Both the position numbers and the translations under genes were made by a program. This document shows positions 1 through 14,571 of a DNA stretch of 64,000 bases, piece after piece; position 1 is the stretch's first letter; every line of letters begins with the position of its first letter. The notes under the pieces were generated by a model. That model searched no databases, was not told the origin of the DNA, and was given only the letters and a program-made list of their open reading frames with translations. The stretch is from the NCBI RefSeq assembly GCF_016695175.1, contig NZ_CP068023.1:3715501-3779500 (forward strand). Direction: 5' to 3'. This DNA is from Pseudoalteromonas sp. GCY. GTDB taxonomy: Bacteria > Pseudomonadota > Gammaproteobacteria > Enterobacterales > Alteromonadaceae.

Positions 1-369
1 CATTAAACACGCACCAAAGCGACCATTTTGCACACGATCTGACGGGCAACCCACGTTTAGGTTTACCTCACTGTAGCCATATTCCTCAGCACGCTTAGCA
101 CACTCTGCCAGCGCCTTAGGATCAGAACCACCCAACTGCAATGCCACAGGCAACTCATGCGCACCAAATGCTAAATAATCCCCTTTACCAAAAATAATCG
201 CACCTGTGGTGATCATTTCTGTATAAAGCACCGCATGTTTAGTCAGCTTGCGGTGAAAGGTTCTGCAATGGCGATCCGTCCAATCCAGCATGGGTGCAAC
301 GCTAAAGCGGCGAAAGGCTGAATCACTTGTATTTTCTGGCTTAGCGCCTGATTTAACTGAACTTTGCAT
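1..369 (-). CDS. dusA: tRNA-dihydrouridine synthase A, N-terminal part (runs off window)
   Basis: Flavoenzyme that reduces uridines in the tRNA D-loop. Only the first 123 codons lie in the window; the gene continues beyond base 1. The visible protein has the DusA pattern [18 protein letters not shown], then [14 protein letters not shown] and [10 protein letters not shown], ending GRFGACLM with the Cys expected to be catalytic near residue 121. ATG at 369 is preceded by an AGAGGT ribosome site. The first ~18 codons and the upstream region belong to the prophage side of the attachment repeat (275-318), so this is a hybrid gene whose start and promoter come from the prophage. The native 5' end is stranded at 14464-14571. 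dusA is a known integration target for a family of prophage integrases. Confidence 0.93.
275..318. repeat. attL, left copy of the 44-bp attachment repeat
   Basis: Identical over 44 bases to 14471-14514; the flanking bases differ on both sides (274 against 14470, 319 against 14515). It lies inside dusA and encodes the conserved segment ending VAPMLDWTD, so integration keeps the reading frame. Confidence 0.93.
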
Positions 370-422
370 AGTACCTCTAGTGCTCTGGATCGCCTTGAAA
401 TTCCATAAAATTCGGTATACAG

Positions 423-444
423 TCACCCTCATGTCACCCCTCAC
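423..444 (+). promoter_or_regulatory. Candidate integrase arm-type sites (GTCACCC motifs), left end
   Basis: Two closely spaced copies of the TCACCC word (TCACCCTCATGTCACCCC) lie between dusA and the integrase. A near-identical pair, TCACCCTAATGTCACCC, occurs at 14421-14437 inside the right end. Placement near both ends suggests binding sites for the integrase or a directionality factor; this is inferred from repetition and position only. Confidence 0.35.
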
Positions 445-479
445 GGGTAGGACAGATCAATAACTTATAAGGAATTCCT

Positions 480-1550
480 GTGGCTGGTTTTAGAATCGAA
501 AAACGCAAGCTTAGCTCTGGCGAACTCCGCTATAAATGTATAGTTCGCGAGAAAAGCCAAGGCAAGATTATACACAATGAAAGCAAAACATTCAGCACAA
601 AAGCACTTGCCGATACATGGGGCAAAAAGCGTGTACATGAACTTGAAACCGAAAGGGTGACTGAAAAGAAACGCACAGTCACCCTAGGCACCCTACTCAA
701 TATGTACTTTGAAGATCACGACTTGTGGAATAGAACAGGTCGCACTAAGCAGTACGTTATTAAAATGCTGATGGATTGTGATATAGCTAAAATCCAATCT
801 AATGCACTTAAAGTAAGTGATGTCATAGAGCATTGCAGAAACCGCCGCGATGCTGGCGCAAGCCCTTCAACTATTTATCATGATGTTGCTTATCTGCGCT
901 CGGTGATGAAGGTGGCCTATCCCGTTTGGAACATAGACGCCAACTATAAAATATTTGAAGATGCCGTACCGGTGTTAATTGATATGGGGCTGGTTGGCAA
1001 AAGCCAAAAGCGCACCCGCCGCCCAACAAGTGATGAACTCGAACGACTACGTGAAGGACTACAAAAGCGTATGGAGTACCGCCCGAACGGCACCAAGCGC
1101 ATTCCTTACCTTGATATTTTAGACTTTAGCCTGCTGACCTGTATGCGAATTGGTGAGGTATGCAAAATCACTTGGGATGACCTAAACACCCAGCATAAAA
1201 CGGTGATGGTCAGAGATAGAAAAGACCCCCGCAAAAAAGCAGGTAATCACATGATAGTGCCGCTACTTGGTGGCTCGTTTGATATTGCACAGCGCCAACC
1301 AAAAATAGATGAGCGAATATTTCCCCACAACCCACGCAGCGTAACCGCAGGATTTCAGCGGGTACGTAATGAGTTAGGGATTGAAGATCTGCGCTATCAC
1401 GACCTGCGCCGCGAGGGAGCAAGTCGACTATTTGAAAAGGGCTATACGATTGAAGAAGTCGCCCAAGTTACTGGGCATCGGAATTTAAATATTCTTTGGC
1501 AGGTTTATACGCAGTTGTTTCCGCATAAGTTGCATTCAAAAAGTCTTTGA
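480..1550 (+). CDS. Tyrosine-type site-specific integrase
   Basis: Recombinase that would integrate and excise the prophage at dusA. It has 356 residues and a GTG start. An N-terminal arm-binding region (about 1-65) and a SAM-like core-binding domain (about 66-170) precede the catalytic domain. The full catalytic set is visible: R223 in CMRIGE, K248, H307 and R310 in HDLRR, H333 in TGHRN and nucleophile Y343. It lies just inside attL and is transcribed away from dusA, the usual arrangement for dusA-specific integrases. It converges with the ParA-like gene across a hairpin at 1610-1634. A further GTCACCC pair lies inside its own coding sequence near 678-695. Confidence 0.95.
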   Translation: MAGFRIEKRKLSSGELRYKCIVREKSQGKIIHNESKTFSTKALADTWGKKRVHELETERVTEKKRTVTLGTLLNMYFEDHDLWNRTGRTKQYVIKMLMDCDIAKIQSNALKVSDVIEHCRNRRDAGASPSTIYHDVAYLRSVMKVAYPVWNIDANYKIFEDAVPVLIDMGLVGKSQKRTRRPTSDELERLREGLQKRMEYRPNGTKRIPYLDILDFSLLTCMRIGEVCKITWDDLNTQHKTVMVRDRKDPRKKAGNHMIVPLLGGSFDIAQRQPKIDERIFPHNPRSVTAGFQRVRNELGIEDLRYHDLRREGASRLFEKGYTIEEVAQVTGHRNLNILWQVYTQLFPHKLHSKSL

Positions 1551-1609
1551 ATATATTAAAGTAGTGGATATAGAAACCATTAATAATTAGTTTTTTCACG
1601 ATTGAACCC

Positions 1610-1634
1610 ATAAGTGCAGTGTTCCTGCACTTAT
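1610..1634. terminator. Hairpin between convergent integrase and parA-like genes
   Basis: A perfect 10-bp stem (ATAAGTGCAG with its complement) with a 5-base loop lies midway between the two convergent genes. The T-run is weak, so this is a likely but unproven bidirectional terminator. Confidence 0.55.
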
Positions 1635-1667
1635 CTTAACTTTTAAAATTAATCCAACTTTCATTTG

Positions 1668-2684
1668 TTAACTGAGTTTACGTACCACAGAGTCAATAGC
1701 CTCCAACGCTTGATCCCTGTAATCTTTCTTTACCTGTACTCTTCTACCTGCCACTGTTAGCTTACCTACAGGCATCGAAGAGAAAGGACAGCCTCTAGCA
1801 AAGGCTACAACTCCTGTCGTTCCAAAATCACGAACACTTGCCATAGCTCTTGATGGATCCTTGAAAGTAAAGGAAGTTGGATATTGTTTTACTAAATCCC
1901 TTAGGTCTGCATCCATTCCTAGCAACACAGCTTTGTAAGCAGAAGCATCCCCCATATACTGAGTAATTCGATTTTTAATTAGCAGATGAATTTTTGGCAG
2001 CGAGCGATCAGCATCTCCCAACTTTTTTGCAAATGTATAGTTTTTATAAACCTCTGAAGGCAAGCGAAGTCCGTAAATGAGCGAAAAAGCATTCTGAATT
2101 GCTCTTCTAGAGGAGTCATCAGCCATAACTGGCAAGATCACTCTATCAGAAGCTGCAAGTGCAATTTGGGTATACATAGAAAAGCTGGGATTGGTATCTA
2201 TGAACACATAATCATGATCCAATTTGCTCAGTAGATCTTTTAGCCAATCAATTATTGCAATCCACGCATTTATGCCGGGAATATCATTATTAGCCAACGT
2301 ATTCATTGCTATTGCTTGCAACTCAAGTAATGGGTCTCCACATACCAACTCTAGATTACGAGGTATAGTATCATTATCCACACTAGGGGTTGTTATAAAA
2401 TCATTAGCATTAAAGTTAGGCACTGAGAATGGAGAACCTAGTCGATAATCAAAATATCCACCAATACTACAGCGTGGTATTTTGGCCTGATTGGCTAGTA
2501 GAGCACTACTGCCATTGCTTTCTTGGCCTCCTAGCAGTAACTCAGACATATTTGCCTGAGGACACATATCGATAACAAGTATCTTTTTGTCAGGATTAAG
2601 TTCTGCAAATCGAGTAACACACTGAAATGCAAGACTCGTTTTCCCTGTTCCACCTTTGTTGTTCCAAATTGAGTAAACCAGCAT
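1668..2684 (-). CDS. ParA/MinD-type P-loop ATPase of the prophage
   Basis: 338 residues with the deviant Walker A KGGTGKT at residues 10-16, a Walker A' region near ILVIDMCPQAN and a Walker B-like YVFIDTNPS followed by the aspartate-rich ILPVMADD. This is the ParA/Soj family of ATP-dependent DNA-partition proteins. No ParB-like gene is adjacent. ATG 2684 has a strong GGGAGG ribosome site and a plausible own promoter (-35 near 2734-2739, -10 near 2712-2717), so it is probably expressed apart from the virion genes. It might stabilise an episomal form of the prophage or act as an accessory gene; both are inference. PM2 is not known to carry such a gene. Confidence 0.85.
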   Translation of the reverse strand: MLVYSIWNNKGGTGKTSLAFQCVTRFAELNPDKKILVIDMCPQANMSELLLGGQESNGSSALLANQAKIPRCSIGGYFDYRLGSPFSVPNFNANDFITTPSVDNDTIPRNLELVCGDPLLELQAIAMNTLANNDIPGINAWIAIIDWLKDLLSKLDHDYVFIDTNPSFSMYTQIALAASDRVILPVMADDSSRRAIQNAFSLIYGLRLPSEVYKNYTFAKKLGDADRSLPKIHLLIKNRITQYMGDASAYKAVLLGMDADLRDLVKQYPTSFTFKDPSRAMASVRDFGTTGVVAFARGCPFSSMPVGKLTVAGRRVQVKKDYRDQALEAIDSVVRKLS

Positions 2685-2814: not shown

Positions 2815-2833
2815 CTTGCTTTCCAAGACATAT

Positions 2834-2992
2834 TTAACAATTTAACGCTTCATCAAGGGCGTCGACTAACTCATCATCCAGCCTGTTCGATGACTTGCTC
2901 GCTAGGTGCTTAGCAGTAGCTAAGCACACTCTTTTAATAAATGCTTCCGTTGCCAGCTTGGTTAACAGGTATTTGCCTATCTTGCCTAGCAT
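2834..2992 (-). CDS. Small phage protein, 52 residues
   Basis: A short ORF with an excellent GGAGG ribosome site 7 bases before ATG 2992. The protein starts MLGKIGKYLL, is basic and amphipathic in the first half and acidic (NRLDDELVDALDEALN) at the end. It overlaps the preceding small gene by 7 bases and closes the long leftward phage operon. Function is not recognised; its place after the putative holin-like gene suggests a role in lysis or membrane assembly. Confidence 0.6.
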   Translation of the reverse strand: MLGKIGKYLLTKLATEAFIKRVCLATAKHLASKSSNRLDDELVDALDEALNC

Positions 2993-3147
2993 TTGCGATC
3001 CTCCAACTTGTTTAGCCGTGCTTTAATTGATCTCAGTTCCTCTTTAAAGGTGTCTTTTATCCACTTTACGTCTGTTTTGATGGTAGCAATGGTGGCAATG
3101 CCCACCCCAGCTTGAATTAAAATGCCTAAAATTGCGCTATCGCTCAT
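2986..3147 (-). CDS. Small membrane protein, holin-like, 53 residues
   Basis: One hydrophobic helix (about residues 4-23, AILGILIQAGVGIATIATI) is followed by a charged tail (VKWIKDTFKEELRSIKARL) that could form a coiled coil. This layout resembles small phage membrane proteins annotated as holins or XhlA-like. An AGGT ribosome site precedes ATG 3147. It abuts the stop of the gene upstream and overlaps the next by 7 bases, consistent with a translationally coupled lysis cassette. The holin assignment rests on topology and position only. Confidence 0.6.
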   Translation of the reverse strand: MSDSAILGILIQAGVGIATIATIKTDVKWIKDTFKEELRSIKARLNKLEDRKC

Positions 3148-3149
3148 TG

Positions 3150-3530
3150 TTACCTCGCTTGCACGGTTGCTATGGTTTGTGGTGATACCTCAGCGTCTAG
3201 CAATACTTGGTATTCTGGCCGCAAACGCATATCAGCATCAAAGATGGTATCTACTAATGCTTGGTTCTGTGGGTTTAACTTTAAAATGGCCTCAAGCCAC
3301 AGTTCGTCTTTTACGCGATAGCTAAAATCGAGCTTTGACCTATCGAGAAAAAACCCCGCCCATTCGCGCTCAATATCATGTGAACCGTTCGCCTTAAATT
3401 GCAGTTTAGCGAGCCAGTTGCCCAGCGGCTCAGTAACCGACTTAGAGCCACTATCAATATATTTATAGACGTAATAAATACCGCCAATAGTGAGCAAAAG
3501 GCTCAAGTTTTTACTGATAAAATTACCCAT
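3150..3530 (-). CDS. Phage membrane protein of unknown function, 126 residues
   Basis: The preferred start is ATG 3530, with a GGGGG ribosome site and an 8-base overlap with the end of the lysozyme-like gene; the open frame extends further upstream but only inside that gene. The protein begins with a hydrophobic helix (residues 7-24, KNLSLLLTIGGIYYVYKYI), then a soluble domain of about 95 residues rich in aromatic and charged residues. It could be a virion membrane protein or a lysis accessory protein. No family was recognised. Confidence 0.7.
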   Translation of the reverse strand: MGNFISKNLSLLLTIGGIYYVYKYIDSGSKSVTEPLGNWLAKLQFKANGSHDIEREWAGFFLDRSKLDFSYRVKDELWLEAILKLNPQNQALVDTIFDADMRLRPEYQVLLDAEVSPQTIATVQAR

Positions 3531-3987
3531 AAAACCCCCATTCAAAACCGCGTTGTATTTGCTCAGGTTGATAAGGTTGCTCGCCATTTTCCATGGTTAT
3601 CATGGCTGCTATCACCTTTGGGTAATCACTTTCAGACAATGGCTGCTGACTATCAACTCCCACTCGCTTCGATACGAACTCGATATAATTGGCCGTGTCG
3701 TTTTCGGTTGGCGGTGCCCATCTATTGATAATGCCGTCTATATTCACAATGCCGTATTTAGTGGCGTAGGTTCGCAAGATACGCGCGGCTGCACGAATAC
3801 CATGTTCAGCGGTTTCAAAAATGGCAAAGCGGCCATCAGTGCCAACTAAGCCAACCCAATTTTCACCCGCTTCAATATTAAGTGGATTGTTATTGCGGAT
3901 CCCCCGCGCTGATTGCTGCGTCGTCATATATACCCCAATTCCCAAAACAATTAACGCTGTGACGATGTGTGATGTTTCGAGCCTCAT
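3523..3987 (-). CDS. Virion-associated peptidoglycan hydrolase-like protein
   Basis: 154 residues: an N-terminal hydrophobic anchor (about 7-24) followed by a domain beginning RGIRNNNPLNIE with GRFAIFETAEHGIRAAARIL. This motif is widespread in phage proteins annotated as structural or lysozyme-like and thought to act on peptidoglycan. With a membrane anchor it would suit a virion-bound wall-degrading enzyme of a membrane-containing phage, as PM2 and PRD1 have. It is coupled to the genes on both sides (TAATG upstream, 8-base overlap downstream). The enzymatic role is inferred. Confidence 0.65.
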   Translation of the reverse strand: MRLETSHIVTALIVLGIGVYMTTQQSARGIRNNNPLNIEAGENWVGLVGTDGRFAIFETAEHGIRAAARILRTYATKYGIVNIDGIINRWAPPTENDTANYIEFVSKRVGVDSQQPLSESDYPKVIAAMITMENGEQPYQPEQIQRGFEWGFYG

Positions 3988-5030
3988 TACGCCCGTTCCT
4001 CAAGAATTTGCACATCACCCAACGAAAGCAGCGCATCTTGATTGGTGAACACCGATTCAAAATACATCACAGATGGTGTGAAGTTGGCGTGGCCGTTTTC
4101 CCGAGCGGTTGTTTTGGGTGGTGATACACAGGCCATAAATAACCTGTGCCACCCCTTTGATAGCGTGATACTTAACGTTTTATTGCCATAAGGCCAGTTT
4201 GTATCACCTTCAGGCGTAGACACTTTGCTCGTATTTACACTTCGGTCATACTTGAACAGCTTTAACACTTCCGTACCAATATCCCCAACCGTTGCGTATA
4301 TTCCCGCTTCGTATGGACCGCCCCCTGTCTCAGTCCACGGATAGGTTCTGACTGTGTCGTCTATTTGCAAATCAAACGGGACGTTGTCCAGCTCATCAGG
4401 GATAAACACATCAAAATAAGGCACGCTCTCGCCCTCTAACTGAGAGCGCGTATATGGCATGTTATTGTTGTAGTTTAGCCACTTAACAACATACGGTAGC
4501 TGGATACTTTGGGATTGAAACACGCGCTTATTTTCGGCTGAGATAAAATAATAAATATCACCGAAGTTTGTGAGCTCAATCTCGGAACCACCTTTGAATA
4601 GCCGCCCATTTTTAATTGCGCCAAACTCGGCTTTCATATTCGCACCGCCAATCCACATATCAAAAGGTGCTTCTATTAATGCTCGTAATCGTGGTGGGTC
4701 GAAATCAAGTAATTTATTTACACCGGGTCTGGTTGCAATTGTTCGAGAAACTATTGAGACCGCACGTTCAGGCTGTGGAGTATAGTCATACTTATGCTTT
4801 CCAACCCATACTGTCACTCGCATATCTCGTTCAGCGTGAAGGTAGAGCGAGGCAAAGCGAATATCATTCAGATTAAGTCCCTGAACAACATCACTATCTA
4901 GTACCGCCTTACCATGTTCATCGAACATTTTCACTCTCAACCCAAGCGAGGAACGAACAACTGCGAATGCTGTTCCAGCATCGTTAACCTCCCAAACATC
5001 TCCCGCCTTTAACTCGTTACTTATCAACAT
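3987..5030 (-). CDS. Putative virion protein, possible vertex spike, 347 residues
   Basis: A soluble protein with no membrane helix or signal peptide and beta-rich composition. It is about the size of the PM2 spike protein P1 (about 335 residues). It sits late in the virion gene block, directly after a repeat-rich protein (stop and start overlap as TAATG) and before the peptidoglycan-active protein. A receptor-binding or spike role fits its size and position, but no convincing sequence motif was recognised, so this remains a hypothesis. Confidence 0.65.
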   Translation of the reverse strand: MLISNELKAGDVWEVNDAGTAFAVVRSSLGLRVKMFDEHGKAVLDSDVVQGLNLNDIRFASLYLHAERDMRVTVWVGKHKYDYTPQPERAVSIVSRTIATRPGVNKLLDFDPPRLRALIEAPFDMWIGGANMKAEFGAIKNGRLFKGGSEIELTNFGDIYYFISAENKRVFQSQSIQLPYVVKWLNYNNNMPYTRSQLEGESVPYFDVFIPDELDNVPFDLQIDDTVRTYPWTETGGGPYEAGIYATVGDIGTEVLKLFKYDRSVNTSKVSTPEGDTNWPYGNKTLSITLSKGWHRLFMACVSPPKTTARENGHANFTPSVMYFESVFTNQDALLSLGDVQILEERA

Positions 5031-5860
5031 TAGCTTGCCCTCATCATTGCTACGGCCATCGACATTCCACCTAAGCCCAGCATTACGTACATCATGGTTT
5101 TATTGGTGCTGATTGCGAGCTGTTGCCCATCGGAACGGCTCGCATGATCGGCAAATTGCAAAGCCTGTTTATGGGCAAGCAATGTTTGGTCATTAAAGGT
5201 CTCTTGTACCTTGAATGTTGACTCCATAAATTGAAGCCCCAAGTCTTTTGCCAAATTGGATGCGTTATCCATCGAATAGACCGCAACGTCACTCATCCGC
5301 GCATTCGCACCATCAAGAGCGCTTACGGTGGTGTCGATGGTGTCGCCCGCAAAACCGACAACGTCGCTACTTATTCCCGCTGAAATGGTCATCATCTCTC
5401 GGGCGAGATCGCTGTTTTCCGCTATCACGTCACGGCTAAGTGTGCTTTGCGCCTGAATGCTATCAGCTGCAATATCACTGGTATGCGCCATTGCATTTTC
5501 ACCAAACAGCATTGCGTTACTGGCCGTATCACTCACTTGTGTAAGTGCGCGCTCTCCAAATACCATAGCGTCAGTCATCGCGCCGCCTGCAAATTCGAGC
5601 GAATCGCGATTAACTTGGCTGGAATAGTCAAAACCATCCCGAGCTAGGTCACTGGCATAATCAAAGCCCGCTATATTTGCAGCCATCATATCCGCCCCAA
5701 GTGACTCAACCGCCCCCACAAGGCCGTGATCGGTTTGTGTTATGTTGTAAGTGTTTCCATCACCATTAGTGATATAACCATTGTTATCACCCTGCACCCC
5801 AAGACTTGTGCTGGTATTGTGCGTGGTTTGGCTTGATCTGCTTCTGGATTTACTACCCAT
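5030..5860 (-). CDS. Repeat-rich virion protein with C-terminal membrane helix
   Basis: 276 residues. The N-terminus is polar (MGSKSRSRSSQTTHNTST) and is followed by a Gly/Asn stretch NGDGNTYNIT. Residues about 64-230 are dominated by helical repeats, several 11 residues long (GFDYASDLARD, GFDYSSQVNRD, SLEFAGGAMTD), then an 18-residue pair (from AMVFGERALTQ and AMLFGENAMAH). A hydrophobic helix near 256-272 closes it. The layout suggests a long helical stalk anchored in the viral membrane. It overlaps the gene before it by 8 bases. Confidence 0.7.
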   Translation of the reverse strand: MGSKSRSRSSQTTHNTSTSLGVQGDNNGYITNGDGNTYNITQTDHGLVGAVESLGADMMAANIAGFDYASDLARDGFDYSSQVNRDSLEFAGGAMTDAMVFGERALTQVSDTASNAMLFGENAMAHTSDIAADSIQAQSTLSRDVIAENSDLAREMMTISAGISSDVVGFAGDTIDTTVSALDGANARMSDVAVYSMDNASNLAKDLGLQFMESTFKVQETFNDQTLLAHKQALQFADHASRSDGQQLAISTNKTMMYVMLGLGGMSMAVAMMRAS

Positions 5861-6206
5861 CTAGAGCCATCCTATAAACTGCATAGCCTTCTTCATCTGT
5901 CGATTCGTAGACAAATGAATAAGCCGACAATAAACGGTTTAACGCCTTGCGCTTTGTGTGATACACGATAGAGGGGGCTTGTAGTTTACGTGCCAGCGCG
6001 ACAATACTTGGCGCGATTAATCGCAAGTTCTTGCCCTCTGCACAGACCACACAAAGCCCGTCGCGGTCTTGGCGAAGCACGCAATAGCAACCAGCGAACT
6101 CAACCAAGACCGCCAAGCCTTTTTCTACCTCTGCTTTTATGACTTCAAAATCTTGTGCTGCCGCAGATTGAATGTGGTGAATTTCGCTAATATTTGCCAC
6201 TCGCAT
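5853..6206 (-). CDS. Phage protein of unknown function, 117 residues
   Basis: The chosen start is ATG 6206, preceded by GGGGG; an upstream in-frame ATG lies inside the preceding gene and lacks a good site. The protein is a compact soluble alpha/beta domain (VLVEFAGCYCVLRQDRDGLCVVCAEGK, then a basic VYHTKRKALNRLL and an acidic-aromatic end). The arrangement is reminiscent of the small GNAT-like proteins found among phage virion genes, but this is weak. It is coupled to both neighbours. Confidence 0.65.
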   Translation of the reverse strand: MRVANISEIHHIQSAAAQDFEVIKAEVEKGLAVLVEFAGCYCVLRQDRDGLCVVCAEGKNLRLIAPSIVALARKLQAPSIVYHTKRKALNRLLSAYSFVYESTDEEGYAVYRMALDG

Positions 6207-6214
6207 ATCGCCCC

Positions 6215-6430
6215 CTACTTTTTCAACAAGTACCATGCGGCAACGGCCACAACCCCAATAATCAGCAATTGATTATTGTTACTGCCACCGAAGTTAATAT
6301 TGCCGCCTGTAAAACCAATTGACTGTGTTTGGTCGCCTGTTCGAGATGACGCGCTAGAGCTAATCGGGCTGCCCGCGCCATTCGTCAGGTTAGGCACAGC
6401 CCCCGTTGCGCCTAACATTGCGCCAACCAT
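6215..6430 (-). CDS. Small virion membrane protein, 71 residues
   Basis: A Gly/Ser/Asn-rich N-terminal two thirds is followed by one hydrophobic helix (about 54-69, LLIIGVVAVAAWYLL) ending in KK. This is typical of minor proteins of an internal viral membrane. Its ATG overlaps the stop of the preceding gene by one base. Confidence 0.7.
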   Translation of the reverse strand: MVGAMLGATGAVPNLTNGAGSPISSSASSRTGDQTQSIGFTGGNINFGGSNNNQLLIIGVVAVAAWYLLKK

Positions 6431-6543
6431 CAGGCTTGATCCTTGTCACGCATCCAGTCGCGAACATAGTCCGCAACAATTGCACCGACTACCGAAATAG
6501 CCACCCCATACGCAAAATATTTCAAGTTCTTTGGATTATTCAT
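6430..6543 (-). CDS. Tiny membrane protein, 37 residues
   Basis: Begins MNNPKNLKYFAYGVAISVVG with a single hydrophobic helix at about 9-25 and a charged end DYVRDWMRDKDQA. Its ATG (6543) directly follows the stop of the 108-residue gene, and its TGA shares one base with the next ATG, so it fits exactly into the coupled operon. Several PM2 virion membrane proteins are of similar size. Confidence 0.65.
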   Translation of the reverse strand: MNNPKNLKYFAYGVAISVVGAIVADYVRDWMRDKDQA

Positions 6544-7933: not shown

Positions 7934-8722
7934 TTATGCAGCTCGAAGTTGGTCAAAGGTGAGTTTTTTGGCTTGCCCTGTTTTTAAATAGATAACTTTT
8001 GGCTCAATGTTGCCTATCCCTCCTTTGTATTTCATCAGGTAATAAAGGCGTTCATCTTCGTAGTGAGCGTTTAATTTGCTGAGCTGATAAATGTCTTGCA
8101 GATCGGCATCTAGCTCTACCGCAACACGCTTTGCATCAGCTTGCGCTTCTTGTGCGCCTAATACTTTGCGCGGTGAATTATTCCAAATGGTTTTTGGTAC
8201 TTCTTGAGAACGTTGAAAAACCGTATGAAGTACCACACCAAACTTGCGCCCACCTGTCGCCAGCTCTCCAATAATCGAGTCATCTTTACCAACGGTATCG
8301 CTTAACTTGGCGAGTTCTTCAATCACAACATGTAGTTCACGGTTCCCGTCTGCCGCTTCCCACATTAACTGACCAAACCAATACAGTTCGTTCTGCTTAG
8401 CCTTTTTCAGTTTTTCGCCCTTCAAGGATTTTGGAAAGTCGGGGCTATAAGCAACCACAAACTTTTTCCCCGAGCGCCACGCATCCACAAAGGCTTGAGC
8501 AAACTGCTTTCTGCTGCTGAAGTGATAAACCGCACGGCCACCCAAGCCATTAAAGTGACCGCGCTTGCGGCCATCATATTTATAGTCGCCATATAAATCG
8601 AAAATCGCGCACTGCTCGCCAACTAAATCTAATAGCTTAACGGCCGTTGTTTTACCGCCGCCAGTTCCTGCCAAATAACAAACATGCTTTGCTTTTAAAG
8701 CATTGTTAGGGTTAATGGGCAC
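7934..8722 (-). CDS. Genome-packaging ATPase, A32/FtsK-HerA type (PM2 P9-like)
   Basis: Would pump viral DNA through a vertex of the membrane-containing capsid. GTG 8722 is the likely start: it follows AGGAGGT with good spacing and overlaps the preceding gene by 11 bases; the longer open frame upstream looks spurious. The protein has 262 residues, with Walker A GTGGGKTT at 19-26, Walker B LHVVIEE near 130-136 and a downstream GRKFGVVLHTVFQR and PRKVLG region typical of this class. Packaging ATPases of this kind are shared by PRD1, PM2 and related membrane-containing viruses and are distinct from tailed-phage terminases. Confidence 0.88.
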   Translation of the reverse strand: MPINPNNALKAKHVCYLAGTGGGKTTAVKLLDLVGEQCAIFDLYGDYKYDGRKRGHFNGLGGRAVYHFSSRKQFAQAFVDAWRSGKKFVVAYSPDFPKSLKGEKLKKAKQNELYWFGQLMWEAADGNRELHVVIEELAKLSDTVGKDDSIIGELATGGRKFGVVLHTVFQRSQEVPKTIWNNSPRKVLGAQEAQADAKRVAVELDADLQDIYQLSKLNAHYEDERLYYLMKYKGGIGNIEPKVIYLKTGQAKKLTFDQLRAA

Positions 8723-9242
8723 TAACCACCTCCTGTTTTTCGCTTTGGTTTTCGCTGCTGCTCTGCTCTTTTTCGTGTGCTTTGATCTGTTTGTAAACTG
8801 ATATTGCAGCCGTACCAAGCACAAGGCCAAGTTCGATTTCTTCCTTCCACCTCGCAAACCAAGGCGGCATGTCACCTTTGCAATATTTACGAACAACAGG
8901 CGTTGCCTTTTCCGCTATTACCTCTCGGGTGTCATGGTCAATAATGACGGGGGCTTCAATCGTCGATTCAATAAAGTCAGCCAGTGACGACACTCCGTAA
9001 CCTGCAAGGGCGCTAATATCTGTGTCGGTCATTGTTTCCGCTTCGCTCACTTCACCCGCTTGCGGTTCGTGACTCGACTCAGCGGTAAATTTATCGAGAT
9101 GGCTGTATTCTTCCACCTGTGGCAATGGCTGCGACTCCAAGTGCGCAGACTGCGAGCCAGCCCCAAAGGTTAGATCCTCCATGGCTGTCGCTATCGGTGT
9201 CTTTTGCATCTCGTTCGGTAGTGATTTCGCTGGTTCTTGCAT
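8712..9242 (-). CDS. Phage protein with acidic N-terminus and C-terminal amphipathic segment
   Basis: 176 residues. The first ~90 are low-complexity and acidic. The rest has IDHDTREVIAEKATPVVRKYCKGDMPPWF and then GLVLGTAAISVYKQI, a weak hydrophobic stretch. An AGGAG ribosome site precedes ATG 9242. The first 152 bases overlap the end of the zinc-ribbon gene in another frame, and the 3' end overlaps the ATPase gene. No family was recognised; its place before the ATPase suggests a packaging or assembly partner. Confidence 0.7.
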   Translation of the reverse strand: MQEPAKSLPNEMQKTPIATAMEDLTFGAGSQSAHLESQPLPQVEEYSHLDKFTAESSHEPQAGEVSEAETMTDTDISALAGYGVSSLADFIESTIEAPVIIDHDTREVIAEKATPVVRKYCKGDMPPWFARWKEEIELGLVLGTAAISVYKQIKAHEKEQSSSENQSEKQEVVSAH

Positions 9243-9555
9243 CTGCTTTTGCTCCTAGTTCGCTATTGTTTTGCTCAAATGTCGGTGTCCACTCGTCAGG
9301 TGCTGGAGTATAGTGGCTCACCGTTTGCTCTGGTTTTGAAATTTCGCTTTGTAAAGCTTGTGATTGCTGGCTTTGCTGGGTGATGGCCTTTGCCCATTTC
9401 GCTTGTAAATTCGCTCCGCTTCTTTGGTCTAATCCGCAGTTTTTGCAGTGCAAATACAAAAGCTTTTTGCCATTTTTACGACGGCGGATACTGGCAAATG
9501 TGCCGCATCCATCGCACTCAATTACACCTAATTCCTCGTTACTCGATTTCGCCAT
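9091..9555 (-). CDS. Zinc-ribbon protein with C-terminal hydrophobic segment
   Basis: 154 residues. An N-terminal zinc ribbon has C14-x2-C17 and C37-x2-C40 in CDGCGTFASIRRR and LHCKNCG, followed by a Gln-rich helix and a polar linker, then a hydrophobic stretch (about 130-147, LWGWLAVCALGVAAIATGG). PM2 encodes a transcription activator, P14, described as resembling TFIIS-type zinc ribbons; this protein is a candidate counterpart, though the C-terminal hydrophobic segment is unexpected for a DNA-binding factor. It overlaps the next gene by 152 bases and the preceding one by 17. Confidence 0.72.
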   Translation of the reverse strand: MAKSSNEELGVIECDGCGTFASIRRRKNGKKLLYLHCKNCGLDQRSGANLQAKWAKAITQQSQQSQALQSEISKPEQTVSHYTPAPDEWTPTFEQNNSELGAKADARTSEITTERDAKDTDSDSHGGSNLWGWLAVCALGVAAIATGGRIQPSR

Positions 9556-9718
9556 AGTGCGCCTCCAAAATTTCTATGCGGCTGACCATTTCATAAAGTA
9601 GTGAAACAGTTTCATCTAATACGCTTTCGGCAAGCTCGATTTTCTTGCCCGCTTTCAACGCTGGTAAGCGCTGCGCTTGTTCTATTTTGTCTTTGATTAA
9701 TCTAACTCTGTGCTGCAT
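9539..9718 (-). CDS. Small charged helical protein, 59 residues
   Basis: Begins MQHRVRLIKDKIEQAQRLPA and is predicted helical throughout (ELAESVLDETVSLLYEMVSRIEILEAHYG). It overlaps the 3' end of the rep gene by 17 bases and the start of the zinc-ribbon gene by 17 bases, with an AGGAG site upstream, so it fits the coupled operon. A regulatory or coiled-coil partner of the zinc-ribbon protein is possible. Confidence 0.65.
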   Translation of the reverse strand: MQHRVRLIKDKIEQAQRLPALKAGKKIELAESVLDETVSLLYEMVSRIEILEAHYGEIE

Positions 9719-11663
9719 AACTCATTGACTCCTGCATTAGCTGCCCACCGCTAACCCAATAATGGGTAACGGTTTGGTTTCTTTCGTCTGTTTCTTGGTA
9801 AGTTGCCCCCCGCATTACTGCATTGCGGTGCTCTGGGGGTATTAAAAAGATGGGATCTAACTTATCCCCGTGTCCGACCTGCCAATCATGGACTTGGGTA
9901 TTACAGTTATTTCCAGTGCTCCAAGGAGAATCGCTGTCGCGCTTCTTTAGTAGCCACTGCGTGGCTCTGGTTACATAAGTCACCCCATCTGAAATAATCC
10001 CGACTACTCGCTTTTTATCCTCGCCATAGTGGTTAGTGCCGTTGAGTTCTTTGGCAAGTTCAACGGGGCATTCCCGTTCACGGAGCGCACCGCCTAGCAG
10101 TTCAATAAATTCTGCAAAGCGGCTATTGTCTGCGGCCTCGAATATCTCTTTTGCAATTTCAGAAAGCTTTTCAACAGATTCCTTTGGCACACGGCGAAAC
10201 TCACGCCAAAGGCCAACGGGTGCGCCACCGATAAACTGGAATTGACGAATACGCCAACGACTCGCCCACGCAGCCACATTCATCACAATGCCGTTTTCTG
10301 GCTCTATTGGCTGGCCTGTTTCGTCGTCGTACATATCATCCATGTGCGCGCCGTTGATGTTCTTAGAAATGTATTTGATGATATAAGACACGGCATCACC
10401 TTTGCTTTTGTCTTCAGGCGTAGCATCAAAGCGGTTTTTCGCGGCTCCTTCTTCGCCGCCGTCATGTTGTAAAGCATAACGGCGCAGGGTGTTGGTTACT
10501 GTGGGCTCGTCACTCGGCTTCATAAACAGCACCATGTGCCAATGCGGGGTTGCATCGGCATGAGGCTCAACAATACGTAAGCCAAACACTTTTACTTTAG
10601 CTTTGGATAGTTCAGCACGAACCTTTGCCCACTGCTTTACCAAATACTCTTGGGTTTCACGTGGTGAAGCATTGTTGTATTTATCACTGTTAGCGTGGTA
10701 CTTGGACGGTGCTGTGATGGTGTAAAACATGCAGGACATGCCTTGTTGTTCTGCCCACTCTTTGTAACCTCTGATCCGCACTATCATTTCAATGCGTCTG
10801 ATCTCAGGGTTTGAAATAGACCCCTCGAATACTTTGACAAGATCAATGGTGTCGCCGTCTTTACTTTCTAACTGCATAGACTCGACCCACTCGGCCTGTG
10901 ACTTTTTGCTGTGGCGAAACTCTTGCACCGCATCTTTACTGGCATAAGGGGAGAGCCCTTTTTTGACCTGCCCCATAGTGATATTCAAATGCTCAAGCGT
11001 GGTGTCACGCAAACGGTCGAGCTTTCGCAGCCACCACTTATCACATTGCATGCGGCGAATACCGCGTTCTAATCGGTCGGCCAGCAAATGAGTATTACAA
11101 CGCTGCCAGCTATCCTCTATTCGCGTGGACTTGGCGGCATTAAACGTTGCTTGGTAAGGCGGCTTTATCCCCTGTGACAAAGTAAAGTCGTGCATTGCGA
11201 TGTAACCTGCAAATACAAGTTGCTCTAAATCTTCCTCTGTCATTGAGTGAGTAAATTCGACAATACCCATTTGCTGGCAGATCGTTGCCAGTTGTTTGGC
11301 TTTATCTTTACGGGCTTTTTTACTATTTAATTCGCGGACGGTAAGCGGTGAACGCTCGATAATTTCGCTCACTCGCTCTGTGGTTTTGCGCAGATAAATA
11401 TTGGCAGAACGTTCGGGGTTTTTAGCACTGCTTGAGTTAAAACGTTTGGCATATTCACGGGCAGCAATACGGCGCAAACGATTGGTAGGTATTTGCGCCA
11501 AACGCTCTTTTACTTGCTCTGCGGTTTTATCAAATCCAAACATGCCCCAACAATGAGGCGCAGCCCGTGTAATGGTAATGGGCTGCATCCTTGGGTTATC
11601 GGTATTGGTATCAACCAGCTCCCAGCAAATAGGGAGGGAGCGAGACTCAGGTGTCACGCTCAC
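9702..11663 (-). CDS. Rolling-circle replication initiator, GPA family (PM2 P12-like)
   Basis: Nicks one strand at the phage origin and starts rolling-circle replication. It has 653 residues, close to PM2 P12, with a GTG start overlapping the previous stop (GTGA). The superfamily I HUH motif is PHADATPHWHM, with H374 and H376 as metal ligands. The paired-tyrosine motif YIIKY places Y427 and Y431 four apart, as in phage phiX174 A and P2 A proteins. A charged N-terminal half of about 300 residues precedes the catalytic core. In such phages the nick site often lies within or near rep; it was not located here. Confidence 0.93.
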   Translation of the reverse strand: MSVTPESRSLPICWELVDTNTDNPRMQPITITRAAPHCWGMFGFDKTAEQVKERLAQIPTNRLRRIAAREYAKRFNSSSAKNPERSANIYLRKTTERVSEIIERSPLTVRELNSKKARKDKAKQLATICQQMGIVEFTHSMTEEDLEQLVFAGYIAMHDFTLSQGIKPPYQATFNAAKSTRIEDSWQRCNTHLLADRLERGIRRMQCDKWWLRKLDRLRDTTLEHLNITMGQVKKGLSPYASKDAVQEFRHSKKSQAEWVESMQLESKDGDTIDLVKVFEGSISNPEIRRIEMIVRIRGYKEWAEQQGMSCMFYTITAPSKYHANSDKYNNASPRETQEYLVKQWAKVRAELSKAKVKVFGLRIVEPHADATPHWHMVLFMKPSDEPTVTNTLRRYALQHDGGEEGAAKNRFDATPEDKSKGDAVSYIIKYISKNINGAHMDDMYDDETGQPIEPENGIVMNVAAWASRWRIRQFQFIGGAPVGLWREFRRVPKESVEKLSEIAKEIFEAADNSRFAEFIELLGGALRERECPVELAKELNGTNHYGEDKKRVVGIISDGVTYVTRATQWLLKKRDSDSPWSTGNNCNTQVHDWQVGHGDKLDPIFLIPPEHRNAVMRGATYQETDERNQTVTHYWVSGGQLMQESMSYAAQS

Positions 11664-11905
11664 AGCACAACCCGCTCATTCATGCGATTGCGGGCGGCCA
11701 TCGCCAGTGCCGACTTTAATAACTGATTGCTACGCTCACCATTTTTGCGCGCACGCTGTTCTTGCTCTAGGCGCTTGGCCTCTGCTTCACGCCTTGCCTT
11801 GTGCGCCCGAATTTGTGCGCGTAGTTGCTGAACTTTCATTACTTGGATTTCCCAATGGCTTGGATCAGTGATCAGCTCTTCAACTTCAACAACGGTATGG
11901 CTCAT
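11660..11905 (-). CDS. Small coiled-coil phage protein, 81 residues
   Basis: ATG 11905 overlaps the stop of the upstream regulator (ATGA) and its own TGA overlaps the rep start (GTGA), so it is translationally coupled on both sides. The middle is a highly charged helix (VQQLRAQIRAHKARREAEAK). A replication accessory or regulatory role is plausible from position; no family was recognised. Confidence 0.7.
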   Translation of the reverse strand: MSHTVVEVEELITDPSHWEIQVMKVQQLRAQIRAHKARREAEAKRLEQEQRARKNGERSNQLLKSALAMAARNRMNERVVL

Positions 11906-12156
11906 GATTGCACACGCTCCCACTCAGCTCGGGCGCTGTCGTATTGTGCTTGAAGATAATCAGCCAAATCATTCACGTTAACGAATGTTGGCGCACGTTC
12001 AGAGTCGCGCATTTTGAATGTAGGAATTGGAAACTTACCCGCTTTGGCATGTTGCTCAGCGGTCTTTGGGTTTACACCAAAAAACTCTTTACATACATCC
12101 CTTAACGGAACCACTGGATTATTAAAACGAGCTAAAAGCGCAAAAGTCATATTCAT
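11902..12156 (-). CDS. PrtN-like winged-helix regulator
   Basis: 84 residues from ATG 12156, which has an AAGGA ribosome site; the longer open frame upstream is unlikely. The pattern TFALLARFNNPVVPLRDV, FFGVNPKTAEQHAKAGKFP, MRDSERAP and VNVNDLADYL matches the pyocin-activator PrtN family of small DNA-binding proteins found in many prophages. It is the second gene of the leftward operon, so it probably controls early replication genes or the later virion genes. Confidence 0.75.
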   Translation of the reverse strand: MNMTFALLARFNNPVVPLRDVCKEFFGVNPKTAEQHAKAGKFPIPTFKMRDSERAPTFVNVNDLADYLQAQYDSARAEWERVQS

Positions 12157-12166
12157 CGCTATGTCC

Positions 12167-12364
12167 TTATTTCTCGTGATCAGATAACAGCTCACTGACT
12201 GAAACCTGACCATTAGTCAGTTTTGAAATTTTGTTGATGTACTTTGCTGGGGCTTGTCCGTGACGATTTACCCAATGCCAAACAACGGACTGTTTGGTTT
12301 TAAGTAAGCGGGCTACTTGAGTTTGCCCACCAACCACCTCTACGGCTTTCTTGATAAACGACAT
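12167..12364 (-). CDS. Cro/YdaS-like helix-turn-helix protein
   Basis: 65 residues with a YdaS/Cro-type helix-turn-helix (VGGQTQVARLLKTKQSVVWHWVNR, then PAKYINKISKLTNG). It is the first gene of the leftward lytic operon and is divergent from the CI-like repressor, the classic place for Cro. Its promoter overlaps the operator at 12379-12393. Confidence 0.85.
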   Translation of the reverse strand: MSFIKKAVEVVGGQTQVARLLKTKQSVVWHWVNRHGQAPAKYINKISKLTNGQVSVSELLSDHEK

Positions 12365-12391
12365 AAAACCACCTAAAGATTACTTTTGGTA

Positions 12392-12420: not shown

Positions 12421-12464
12421 TAGTTAAATCACTAAAAGTAATCTTTTTGATTACCAAAAGGGGT

Positions 12465-12494: not shown

Positions 12495-12543
12495 CAAACC
12501 AAGAAATCACTAATTGTGATAAAAGTAATCAACAGGAATAAAT

Positions 12544-13158
12544 ATGGACATTGCAAATAGAGTAAAAGAGCGCCGCAAGTCATTAGGGCTAACACAGTAC
12601 CAACTTGCCGAAATGACCAACTCAGCACAGACATCAATTCAGAAGATTGAGCGCGGGGCTACTAAGAATCCAAGGAATATAGAGGCTATAGCAAAGGCGT
12701 TACAATGCACGCCTGAATATTTACGTTTTGGTGTGGGTGATTTTGACAATGCGTCAATCGGGCCCGAACTAAAAAGCAGACTACCGCTGATCAGCTGGGT
12801 ACAAGCTGGCGCATGGATGGATATTCAAGAAGTGAGTACTTTGGAAGCAGAACACTTTCTTTGCCCTGTTAACTGTAGTGAAAAATCATTTGTGCTTCGT
12901 GTTCAAGGTGTGAGCATGGAACCAAAGTTCCAAGATGGTGATTTAATATTTGTTGATCCAGAAGCCGCCTGTATTCATGGCTCCTATGTGGTGGCTAGAC
13001 TTGATGATGATAACCAAGCTACCTTCAAGCAACTTATTATCGAAGGCGGGCAAAAATACCTAAAAGCACTAAACCCTAATTGGCCGGAGCAGCTAGTGCC
13101 TATCAATGGGAATTGTACGCTTGTTGGCAGGGTTGTGTTTACTGGGAAGTCGCTTTAA
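12544..13158 (+). CDS. CI/LexA-like phage repressor with S24 protease domain
   Basis: 204 residues. An XRE helix-turn-helix (about 1-65, QYQLAEMTNSAQTSIQKIERG) binds the operators upstream. A LexA-type self-cleaving domain follows, with the probable cleavage bond A88-G89 in VQAGAW, nucleophile S124 in GVSMEPKF and general base K162 in TFKQL. It should maintain lysogeny and be inactivated through RecA after DNA damage, which would make the prophage SOS-inducible; this is inferred from the family. A perfect 8-bp hairpin follows at 13183-13200. Confidence 0.92.
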   Translation: MDIANRVKERRKSLGLTQYQLAEMTNSAQTSIQKIERGATKNPRNIEAIAKALQCTPEYLRFGVGDFDNASIGPELKSRLPLISWVQAGAWMDIQEVSTLEAEHFLCPVNCSEKSFVLRVQGVSMEPKFQDGDLIFVDPEAACIHGSYVVARLDDDNQATFKQLIIEGGQKYLKALNPNWPEQLVPINGNCTLVGRVVFTGKSL

Positions 13159-13182
13159 GCAAAGTTTTCTATATTAAGCTTT

Positions 13183-13200
13183 TCAAAACGGACGTTTTGA
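13183..13200. terminator. Hairpin after the repressor gene
   Basis: TCAAAACG-GA-CGTTTTGA is a perfect 8-bp stem with a 2-base loop, 25 bases past the repressor stop and before the convergent putAbiC gene. There is no clear T-run, so termination is only likely. Confidence 0.45.
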
Positions 13201-13243
13201 TTAGCTTCAGACTTTTCCAACTTCCCGAGAACTTTAAAAAGGT

Positions 13244-14302
13244 TTATACCTCTTGGCTTGGGCGATTTAACTTGTAAGGAACATTCTTATTTTTTCCAAA
13301 AGCCCCCCCAAAATGCTTACTTAGATCAATCTTATCGAAAACTTTCTCTTTTTGATACTGAAGAAACATTTCGTCATTCGCTAGAGGCTTTTCAGATCCA
13401 GCTAACTTATATCCACCCTCAACAGCTTGAATAGGTAAATGTTCGAGCATTTCATATCTGATTAATAAATTTTTGAACTCACCATTATCCGAAACGCCTT
13501 CAATACAATTTAAAAAAAGGATTGCCAGTTCTTTTGTAGATAGCTGAGCTCTCAATATGCTCGTATACTTCCTTTTATCAGCTTCTGAAAGCTTATTATC
13601 ATCATAATTATTTATTATTTTTAATGCTTGATAAAGATTCCTAAAATAGTGACCAAGAATATGGTTAAGATTATTTTGAATAAATTTATACCTTTCCAAA
13701 GAGTTTTCTGCGGACTCAGAGTTGGATGTAAGAAACTTGATAATTGTTTCAAACACTTCTCTTCCTTCAACTATTTCATCCTTATCAAGAAGTGCGTTGC
13801 CCATAGTTCTTTGAAAGAATGTTTCCGCTATCTCAGTGAAAATTCGCTCAGCTTTTGTTTTGTTAGATAACTCTTTCATGTCTAGTTTTAGGTTTGAAAC
13901 AAGATTATGATGAAGATCAAGAATATTAAAAAAAGTTGTCTCAATTGCTGTAGTACCCAAGGCATCAGCTGTTTTTTCATATTCAAACCTAGCAAGGCGG
14001 AATTCTTTTCTTTGAATTACTATCGTTACTATCAAACCAAATAGAGTAAAAAATGTAAGAATTGGGTTTAAAATTCCGCCAAAAAAATCACCAAAAGCAC
14101 CTGCTTTATCAGTGATAAATATTAAAACTAAATTAACTAGAAATAATAGGCCTGCGATAGCTATCGCTAATGAAATTATCGTAAAGAGTACCTTATGCAA
14201 CAATATATCTTCTTTCGACTCTCCTGAGTCCATAAGCATCCCTTGAAAGGAAGAATACTTTTTCTCCCAAAGGCCTTTCATTTTCTTTACCATCTTATCC
14301 AT
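13244..14302 (-). CDS. putAbiC-family membrane protein, candidate phage-exclusion gene
   Basis: 352 residues. Two membrane helices (about 37-63 and 76-97) separated by DKAGAFGDFFGGILNP are followed by VIQRKEFRLARFEYEKTADAL and a long cytoplasmic helical domain with TTFFNILDLHHNLV. This layout is that of the putative phage abortive infection (putAbiC) family, related to lactococcal AbiC. The gene lies between the repressor and the right end, on the opposite strand to the repressor, and is visibly AT-richer than the phage core. This is the usual place for a cargo gene expressed in the lysogen to block rival phages. The defence role is inferred. Confidence 0.82.
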   Translation of the reverse strand: MDKMVKKMKGLWEKKYSSFQGMLMDSGESKEDILLHKVLFTIISLAIAIAGLLFLVNLVLIFITDKAGAFGDFFGGILNPILTFFTLFGLIVTIVIQRKEFRLARFEYEKTADALGTTAIETTFFNILDLHHNLVSNLKLDMKELSNKTKAERIFTEIAETFFQRTMGNALLDKDEIVEGREVFETIIKFLTSNSESAENSLERYKFIQNNLNHILGHYFRNLYQALKIINNYDDNKLSEADKRKYTSILRAQLSTKELAILFLNCIEGVSDNGEFKNLLIRYEMLEHLPIQAVEGGYKLAGSEKPLANDEMFLQYQKEKVFDKIDLSKHFGGAFGKNKNVPYKLNRPSQEV

Positions 14303-14420
14303 AAATTAATCCAATAGAAGTCAAATAGCTACGGACTAAATATTACTTAACTAAATAGCTCACAACAATCATTTAACAATTAAAAGTTTAAGTTACTTTC
14401 TTACCCCCCGAAAAAAGCAT

Positions 14421-14447
14421 TCACCCTAATGTCACCCTTAACACCCT
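14421..14447 (+). promoter_or_regulatory. Candidate integrase arm-type sites, right end
   Basis: TCACCCTAATGTCACCC followed by a further CACCCT lies 24 bases inside attR, in the same orientation as the near-identical pair at 423-439 inside attL. Shared sequence at the two ends suggests integrase arm sites or a site for an excisionase. Confidence 0.35.
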
Positions 14448-14463
14448 AAGCCTATTATTCTAA

Positions 14464-14571
14464 CTATAAGTCCGTCCAATCCAGCATGGGTGCAACGCTA
14501 AAGCGGCGAAAGGCATCAACACAGTGGTTAGGTGTTTGTGGCTCAAAGGGTGGAGTAGGTTGTTGGCTCAT
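14464..14571 (-). pseudogene. Stranded native 5' end of dusA
   Basis: From ATG 14571 the frame reads MSQQPTPPFEPQTPNHC, then the DusA segment [14 protein letters not shown] encoded by attR, and hits a stop three codons beyond the repeat junction (35 residues in all). This is the original start of the host dusA, cut off by the prophage; excision would restore it. Confidence 0.88.
14471..14514. repeat. attR, right copy of the 44-bp attachment repeat
   Basis: Exact match to 275-318. Beyond it the sequence continues as the native dusA 5' end and host flank. Confidence 0.93.

Follow-up and report, generated by a model that had tools for sequence, protein, structure and literature searches.

A predicted temperate corticovirus in the dusA gene of Pseudoalteromonas sp. 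GCY combines a PM2-type core with a lysogeny cassette of the kind found in tailed phages

Corticoviruses form icosahedral virions that enclose a membrane and a circular, supercoiled double-stranded DNA genome. According to a passage of PMC12451628, nine signature genes, which make up about half of the genome, are common to members of their order, Vinavirales. Temperate corticoviruses or their close kin have already been described. Passages of Krupovic and Bamford (2007; PMC1950889) report PM2-like prophages with integrases and CI/Cro-type repressors, two prophage copies per genome in Vibrio parahaemolyticus, a P9-P7-P2 gene block, a role in lysis for P18, an integrase resembling that of P2 in one PM2-like prophage, and lysis genes exchanged with tailed phages. 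Cr39582 is induced by mitomycin C (PMC5968719), and NO16 is temperate according to an excerpt of PMC9966536. Integrases that target dusA form a described family (PMC4482086, in part), and for Vibrio, tailless prophages have been published that sit in the 5' end of dusA, seem to restore it, and carry defense genes in accessory border loci (PMC11630473, in part). Here, we describe a corticoviral prophage, el1, at positions 275-14514 of a 64,000-nucleotide stretch (the window) of Pseudoalteromonas sp. GCY (contig NZ_CP068023.1; C2:3715501-3779500 in our numbering of this two-contig, 5.47-Mb genome). As both the class of corticoviral prophages and the dusA insertion site are already known, el1 adds a member to them. 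The genome, referred to below as G000, holds two corticoviral major capsid proteins (MCPs), the other one in a second prophage, el2, at C2:2572885-2587371; other G-numbers stand for compared genomes.

We consider it very probable that el1 is a temperate corticovirus made of two parts, a PM2-type core (HUH replication initiator Rep, packaging ATPase, double-jelly-roll capsid, spike, and lysis gene) and a predicted lysogeny cassette of the kind found in tailed Peduoviridae (dusA integrase, excisionase, Cro, and self-cleaving CI). An earlier note on this DNA had proposed a complete PM2-like prophage at 275-14514, and homologs or counterparts of P1 to P10 are all found there. From the integrase end, the genes run int, parA, P18, an open reading frame (ORF) at the P17 position, P6, P5, spike P1, gp j (which we take to be P10), a gene for a 127-amino-acid (127-aa) protein, P8, P4, P3, MCP P2, P7, ATPase P9, three small ORFs, rep, an 87-aa ORF, xis, cro, cI, and putAbiC; only int and cI lie on the plus strand, and all the other genes are on the minus strand. 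In tblastn searches (E ≤ 1e-3), 10 el1 proteins match PM2, and P4 and P7 are added by comparison, so that the nine published signature genes are matched by number, not by gene names.

The 269-aa product of 6883..7692, which the earlier note had named a P2-like capsid protein, contains the Pfam domains P2_N and P2_C, matches PM2 P2 in the PDB (2vvf/2w0c, E = 9.4e-74), and is 47% identical to PM2 P2. Its AlphaFold model, built on a 13-sequence alignment (mean predicted local distance difference test score [pLDDT] of 84.7), has 2vvf as the top Foldseek match, with a template modeling score of 0.94 both ways and a root mean square deviation of 1.9. This match excludes the case, raised in the earlier note, of a 269-residue protein without structural likeness to P2, and it gives el1 the double-jelly-roll MCP of Corticoviridae and Vinavirales. 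The packaging ATPase P9 (7934..8896; start codon uncertain, with no ATG in the first 60 codons) lies near the MCP gene, with the gene for the 35-aa P7-like virion protein (7702..7809; assigned by setting its translation beside PM2 P7) in between. The ATPase matches phrog_2666 (E = 3.6e-32) and is 81 to 98% identical to its counterparts in el2, G085, G083a, and G046a and 32% identical, over 102 residues, to PM2 P9. The GPA-family HUH replication initiator (P12 homolog; 9702..11663) matches PF05840 Phage_GPA (E = 2e-105) and shares 58% identity with PM2 P12; its HWH motif at residues 374-376 and the YxxxY pair Y427/Y431 are conserved in el2, PM2, GXT1010, and the tailed phage C5a. The P18-like lysis protein (2834..2992) is 69% identical to the product of PM2 9922-10074.

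Compared with PM2 (Merivirus PM2, of the genus formerly named Corticovirus in the family Corticoviridae), el1 has counterparts, by homology or by position, of P1 to P10, P18, and Rep P12 in synteny; what PM2 lacks is any match to Int, Xis, Cro, or CI, and what el1 lacks is the dif-type site of PM2 (see below). By capsid, the closest record in the phage collection is GXT1010 (MK424903, a partial genome), which shares P2 (67%), the ATPase (66%), and the 127-aa gene but shows no match to the lysogeny cassette and carries the 18-mer of dif. The excisionase, P4, P7, the lysis gene P18, and the second prophage go beyond what the earlier note had recognized.

Its statement that all genes look intact also held up. 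The core genes align over nearly their full length (P2 over residues 1-269 of 269 and Rep over 1-653 of 653 against G085), and the ratio of nonsynonymous to synonymous substitution rates (dN/dS) is 0.01 to 0.27 for 12 of the 13 genes compared, whereas no value was obtained for the ATPase in any of the four comparisons, for Int and P10 against G083a, or for P10 and the 127-aa gene against el2. A complete and apparently intact corticoviral prophage at 275-14514 is thus confirmed at the sequence level. It is accordingly unlikely that el1 is a domesticated or defective remnant, with genes kept by chance and with excision and virion production lost: the perfect att repeats, core genes that stay open across almost all of the length seen in relatives, the full set of P1-P10 homologs or counterparts, the low dN/dS, and the presence of an excisionase all speak against that explanation, although decay does occur in the group, as seen in the interrupted MCP of G046a and the mere fragments left at dusA in G018.

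The earlier note had also listed a tyrosine integrase, a CI/Cro switch, a ParA homolog, and a candidate exclusion gene, and domain profiles bear out the integrase, an S24-type repressor, ParA, and putAbiC. The dusA-type tyrosine integrase (480..1550, plus strand) matches PF00589 (E = 4.5e-21), the excisionase (11902..12213) matches phrog_1300 (E = 1.6e-28), and the CI-type repressor (12544..13158, plus strand) has an S24 self-cleavage domain (PF00717, E = 4.6e-28); the Cro-like regulator is encoded at 12167..12364. In CI, the cleavage site Ala88-Gly89 and the catalytic residues Ser124 and Lys162 are present, at a spacing that we take to be like that of LexA, and they mark it as a predicted SOS-cleavable repressor. 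All four proteins have relatives in the tailed Shewanella phage M16-3 (vB_SspM_M16-3; Peduoviridae): Int is 73% identical, Xis 57%, Cro 65%, and CI 66%, and the M16-3 genes for CI, Cro, and Xis are arranged as in el1, with Int at the far end. Other tailed phages share pairs or single genes, namely, C5a (Int, 79%; Xis, 68%; CI only weakly, 31% over 70 residues), PY3 (CI, 68%; Cro, 63%), and ACA1 (Int, 78%). These phages differ from el1 in having a P2-type capsid, portal, and terminase, and their Rep is only 31 to 35% identical (C5a, M16-3, and PY3). None of the four cassette proteins has a match in PM2, Cr39582, or GXT1010 (E ≤ 1e-3). Relative to the open-license literature, the sharing of the whole four-gene switch with a tailed phage is new, as is the integrase tree.

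That tree has 35 rows, of which 22 are tailless, 9 tailed, and 4 unlabeled, their element type being unknown; the integrases of M16-3 and G018, which contain stops, were left out, and G081 and G082 were labeled tailed from one tailed-phage gene match each in the same stretch. The integrases of el1, G046a, G085, and G009 branch with those of the tailed C5a, ACA1, and G081 and one unlabeled row (support, 98/96), apart from the Vibrio tailless rows, and G083a branches with G082 and two unlabeled rows (97/93). At least three changes between tailless and tailed are required, a single change being found in 0% of 200 bootstrap trees, and one clade of all 22 tailless integrases is rejected by the approximately unbiased (AU) test (P = 0.008). 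Exchange between tailless and tailed viruses is thus real but rare. Two separate captures within Pseudoalteromonas, with no direction of transfer implied, are suggested but not proven, because the test does not reject a single clade for the five tailless integrases from Pseudoalteromonas (P = 0.137); for one clade of the four integrases with an el1-like core, the AU P value is 0.144.

The proposed life cycle would be as follows. Int would join the 44-bp site of the phage to the 5' end of dusA by recombination, and the phage DNA would rebuild the gene. CI, bound to operators in the cro-cI interval, would keep the early operon repressed until DNA damage makes CI cleave itself (SOS induction), upon which Int and Xis would excise a circle of 14,196 bp. 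Rep would nick this circle to start rolling-circle replication, and the late genes would yield a membrane-containing capsid, with P18 helping to lyse the cell; ParA and putAbiC would be border cargo. Candidate operators are three palindromes at 12379-12393, 12428-12442, and 12506-12520, which fit the pattern RTYACYWWWWGTRAT with at most one mismatch. This pattern has 11 strand-matches in the window, 6 of them at 12379-12520, against 1.47 expected for the whole window, an enrichment that is partly circular, as the pattern was drawn from that same region.

Several points weigh against the picture of an active two-part temperate virus. Induction, excision, and virion production are predictions from sequence. 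The 14.2-kb circle exceeds the 10.1-kb PM2 genome, which makes its packaging by such a capsid an assumption. The cleavage site annotated in PM2 (2253/2254) lacks conservation at the position that aligns with it, and promoter-like sites are rarer than in shuffled sequences (16 versus 25.4). As regards the cassette, the integrase tree shows strong clustering by tailless and tailed label (3 changes versus a shuffled mean of 8.0, with 0 of 500 shuffles as low), which means that transfers were few, and the single Pseudoalteromonas clade mentioned above survives its test.

The insertion in dusA, also claimed by the earlier note, is borne out in detail. An exact direct repeat of 44 bp marks both ends of el1. 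The copy at 275..318 is joined to dusA, which obtains a new 5' end from the adjoining element DNA, and beyond the copy at 14471..14514 lies the original 5' end of the gene, now displaced. Both copies consist of dusA codons, and the dusA frame is open both with the insert, when the start comes from element DNA, and with the flanks joined. Hence, el1 has inserted into the 5' end of dusA and supplies the new N terminus of DusA, as expected of a dusA-targeting integrase.

The closest described parallels are the dusA prophages of Vibrio cyclitrophicus in three deposited genomes (PQ189296, PQ189363, and PQ189315), whose gene map is that of el1: they have an integrase that is 71 to 72% identical, cargo at both borders, an apparently restored dusA, and the order integrase, virion genes, MCP, ATPase, Rep A, excisionase, and S24 repressor. 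They differ in host genus and in the MCP, of which el1 matches only residues 5-51 at 30% identity (tblastn). Their integrases also stand apart from that of el1, which nests with tailed Pseudoalteromonas phages.

The earlier note went on to suggest that the dusA site and the gene set may define a distinct temperate lineage. In its favor are the close relationship of the integrases of el1, G046a, G085, and G009 (a 100/99 branch) and the shared map of the Vibrio dusA prophages. Nevertheless, such a lineage is highly unlikely, as the MCP tree, the insertion sites, and the cargo all contradict it. A search of 108 genomes of the genus with the MCP gave matches in 12, at 16 places, a single broken gene accounting for two of these places, and a search for dusA-type integrases matched 42 of the 108, many of the matches being fragments or weak; searches at the family and order levels sampled 395 and 394 genomes, respectively, out of larger groups. 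Corticoviral elements at dusA are el1, G046a (MCP interrupted), G085, G083a, and G009, with a remnant in G018, while tRNA-Ser is used by el2 and G025 and the tmRNA gene by G034. In the MCP tree (18 rows, with the broken 188-aa MCP fragment of G046a left out), dusA elements are interspersed with tRNA-Ser elements; a single clade of the four dusA rows is rejected (AU P = 5.3e-6), as is a clade of el1, G085, and G009 alone (AU P = 1e-67, in a tree whose outgroup branch is long). The core DNA of G083a (at dusA) is 94 to 97% identical to that of el2 (at tRNA-Ser) in aligned pieces of >120 bp, and the early region adds two short matches, of 63 and 66 bp (78% and 92%), yet the two elements differ in the integrase as well as in the site. 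Likewise, el1 shares more integrase identity with G009 (83%) than with G083a (78%), yet the MCP of G009 is only 57% identical to that of el1, versus 92% for G083a. Finally, ParA and AbiC are private to el1 among the compared loci.

The genes for temperateness in these viruses are thus cassettes open to exchange, and one such cassette is common to viruses of different realms; therefore, neither the integrase nor the insertion site should serve to classify them.

Two observations on individual elements may be added here. The dusA element of G046 is nearly identical to el1 except for its interrupted capsid gene (L052, MCP 9246-9806), an instance of decay in the group, and the G034 element sits at the 3' end of the tmRNA gene, with a 26-bp repeat (L053:4497-4856).

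The earlier note was right that PM2-related prophages are known as a class; its description of PM2, the only well-studied corticovirus, as strictly lytic is doubtful, since PM2 carries the core 18-mer of the host dif site. No relatives of the el1- or el2-type integrases were found at E ≤ 1e-3 in seven compared corticoviral loci, and in five of these a Pfam scan of 10 of the 12 non-core ORFs of at least 150 aa revealed no recombinase domain (smaller ORFs were not searched for other recombinases). Five of the seven integrase-less loci (G095, G059, G098, G046b, and G018) are flanked by direct repeats of 17 to 19 bp that contain the dif core TTTATATTATGTTAAAT and lie 10.4 to 13.5 kb apart. Of the remaining two, G083b, a contig of 10,236 bp, ends on both sides in a 21-bp variant repeat, and G048 has one full copy only.

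The 18-mer ATTTATATTATGTTAAAT is present in 81 of the 108 genomes, once in 79 of them and twice only in G059 and G095, both of which are lysogens; its reversed control pattern is found in none of the 108. We regard it as dif because of its position in the replicon, its likeness to the Escherichia coli site (6 to 7 mismatches of 28), and its single-copy state. On 13 picked contigs of >3 Mb, it lies at 0.49 to 0.51 of the length in 11 and at 0.64 in 2; the three copies retrieved from contigs of 1.2 to 1.35 Mb are off center (at approximately 0.11 in G000 C1, 0.23 in G075 C2, and 0.67 in G084 C1). When two mismatches are allowed, the 18-mer matches the window genome at two places and the control at one, which makes the chromosome-1 copy in this genome less certain.

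PM2, Cr39582, and GXT1010 all carry the exact 18-mer. In PM2, the dif-type site is at 747-774, where it overlaps the small ORF b/b*, which lies between gp a and gp c, taken to be genes XV and XVI, and it is between genes XV and XVI that prophages are linearized according to Krupovic and Bamford (PMC1950889, in part). A DUF3653 protein, which is the annotation of PM2 gp a, adjoins one dif copy in three of the five flanked elements (G095, G098, and G018). At the junctions of G095 and G059, the left arm is chromosomal (CCTATA and CCCATA, respectively), and the right arm, CTTACG, is that of PM2, Cr39582, and GXT1010. No dif-type site was found in el1 or el2 within 6 mismatches of 24. Kalatzis et al., in part of their paper (PMC9966536), named a presumptive dif in PM2 and suggested an undetected lysogenic lifestyle; the match to the host dif, the junctions, and the dif-flanked relatives, all new relative to the open-license literature, extend that suggestion.

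On balance, we think it fairly likely that PM2-type corticoviruses of Pseudoalteromonas are ordinarily temperate and enter dif, the site where the host resolves chromosome dimers, by means of host XerCD, that PM2 would have a working attP between gp a and gp c, and that the elements at dusA, tRNA-Ser, and tmRNA may have replaced it with integrase cassettes, the dusA one being exchanged with tailed phages of another realm. The relatives point to a possible insertion of PM2 itself into host chromosomes, and as they sit at dif, the core of which PM2 also carries, the frequent claim of a strictly lytic PM2 can be put to a direct test. Separately, a weak MCP-like fragment (G067:C38:111430-113574, E = 1e-5) lies approximately 2 kb from the only dif 18-mer of that genome and is perhaps a remnant at dif.

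Beyond the lysogeny genes, the spike is a further exchangeable part. The el1 spike protein P1 (3987..5030) is of the short type, with 347 aa; it contains Spike_JR2 and Phage_spike_P1 and matches PDB 2w0c_L over residues 1-346 (E = 1.4e-38). The spike gene behaves as a swapped cassette: in the pairs G018/G083b, el2/G083a, and PM2/Cr39582, the flanking DNA pieces are 90 to 97% identical, and there is no DNA match within the spike gene itself. Near-identical cores in different hosts often have unrelated spikes, an exception being el1 and G046a, whose spikes are 100% identical. In all three Pseudoalteromonas genomes with two elements, both carry the same spike type (84, 79, and 74% identity), with MCPs of these co-resident pairs that differ (92, 61, and 55% identity). 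Permutation of the spike types over 15 loci gave a P value of 0.00046, in a test made after the pattern had been seen. A rule that the spike follows the host is not claimed, as no such rule holds in a second genus (g72, probably Vibrio). Among its 12 genomes with several matches, 3 are concordant (G830, G946, and G933, the last with near-identical elements), 5 have at least one discordant pair (G884, G867, G903, G922, and G851), 1 has identical copies (G996), and 3 could not be assessed (G850, G950, and G1006). In this genus, position alone served to assign the spikes, and at least one element lacks the P5 landmark in four discordant genomes (all except G884), so that only G884 shows firm discordance. 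A model of the long spike type (mean pLDDT of 41) is usable only for about residues 1-80.

At the borders of el1 are two genes that the earlier note had counted in the gene set of the lineage, and neither is found in the 27 compared loci (E ≤ 1e-3; 6 of the 27 hold no corticoviral element). The ParA-like ATPase at the integrase border (1668..2684; PF13614 and phrog_164) has 3,908 homologs at E ≤ 1e-10, and the 120 listed are mostly 67 to 86% identical, an unusually high conservation for border cargo. That ParA partitions an extrachromosomal circle, with el1 a phage-plasmid-like element for which integration is secondary, is barely credible: a ParA homolog and an HUH Rep are indeed present, but no ParB turned up among the genes scanned, in which no search was aimed at ParB, ParA is absent from the compared relatives and occupies a border cargo slot, the element is integrated, and the MCP has no match (E ≤ 1e-3) among 72,556 plasmid records. 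A defense role of ParA was considered and dropped, as its only PADLOC match is trivial (E = 0.07).

The gene at the other border (13244..14302) has the putAbiC domain of AbiC-type proteins (PF16872, 83.3 bits versus a cutoff of 22), with PADLOC matches to AbiC (E = 1.1e-11) and AbiP (E = 5.2e-11), and is probably an exclusion gene. The corresponding borders of G085 hold a reverse transcriptase that matches the type VI retron reverse transcriptase (E = 2.8e-82) and a pentapeptide protein, and in Vibrio PQ189363 a gene labeled ThsB adjoins the integrase. Because the border slots of G085 and of the Vibrio prophages are filled with other cargo, ParA and putAbiC probably represent the local filling of a known cargo slot in the two-part virus. 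Besides the reverse transcriptase and the pentapeptide protein, the other five of the seven border proteins scanned gave weak matches at most. In G085, it is the retron-type reverse transcriptase (L047:3476-4435) that occupies the slot of putAbiC.

The remaining genes of el1 between the P18 and MCP genes encode a P17-position small protein (2986..3147), 91% identical to its el2 counterpart, without a PM2 match at E ≤ 1e-3 and named by position and size only; a P6-like virion protein (3150..3587; phrog_20312, E = 1.2e-28; 32% to PM2 P6); a P5-like virion protein with an endolysin-like region (3523..3987; phrog_873, E = 3.3e-55; 51% to PM2 P5); the gp j homolog (5030..5860; phrog_20836, E = 9.2e-56; 35% to PM2 gp j); the 127-aa protein (5853..6236), which is 46% identical to that of GXT1010, found in most relatives, and without a match in PM2, G034, or G009; a P8-like virion protein (6215..6430; phrog_8911, E = 9.9e-22; 48% to PM2 P8); a P4-like small virion protein of 37 aa (6430..6543), which has LKYFAYGVAIS and YVRDWMR in common with PM2 P4; and the P3 membrane virion protein (6544..6870; PF20812 PM2_P3, 35.5 bits versus a cutoff of 27; 46% to PM2 P3). 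The three small ORFs between the ATPase gene and rep encode a conserved 176-aa protein at the ORF h position (8712..9242; 42% to GXT1010 and 73% to el2), a 154-aa protein (9091..9555; 46% to GXT1010) that by its position is a possible zinc-ribbon regulator, with only subthreshold zinc-ribbon matches, and a 59-aa protein (9539..9718; 81% to G085 and 53% to el2) at the P13 position, from which alone its function is deduced. The 87-aa early-operon protein (11660..11923) is 72% identical to that of el2 and 41% identical to that of GXT1010 over residues 6-56.

The second prophage, el2, is inserted in tRNA-Ser(GGA), with a 28-bp repeat. It resembles el1 in core DNA (77 to 80% identical), spike (84%), and MCP (92%) but differs in its site, in a different integrase of 419 aa, in a repressor-like 125-aa helix-turn-helix regulator without the S24 domain, and in its cargo. 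With this cousin in the same cell, equipped with a different regulator and integrase, el1 offers a concrete, testable lysogen for corticovirus biology. In the surroundings of el2 (L012:6703-8015), eight tandem tRNA-Lys(TTT) genes stand beside nadA-like and tol-pal-like genes, which were named by eye.

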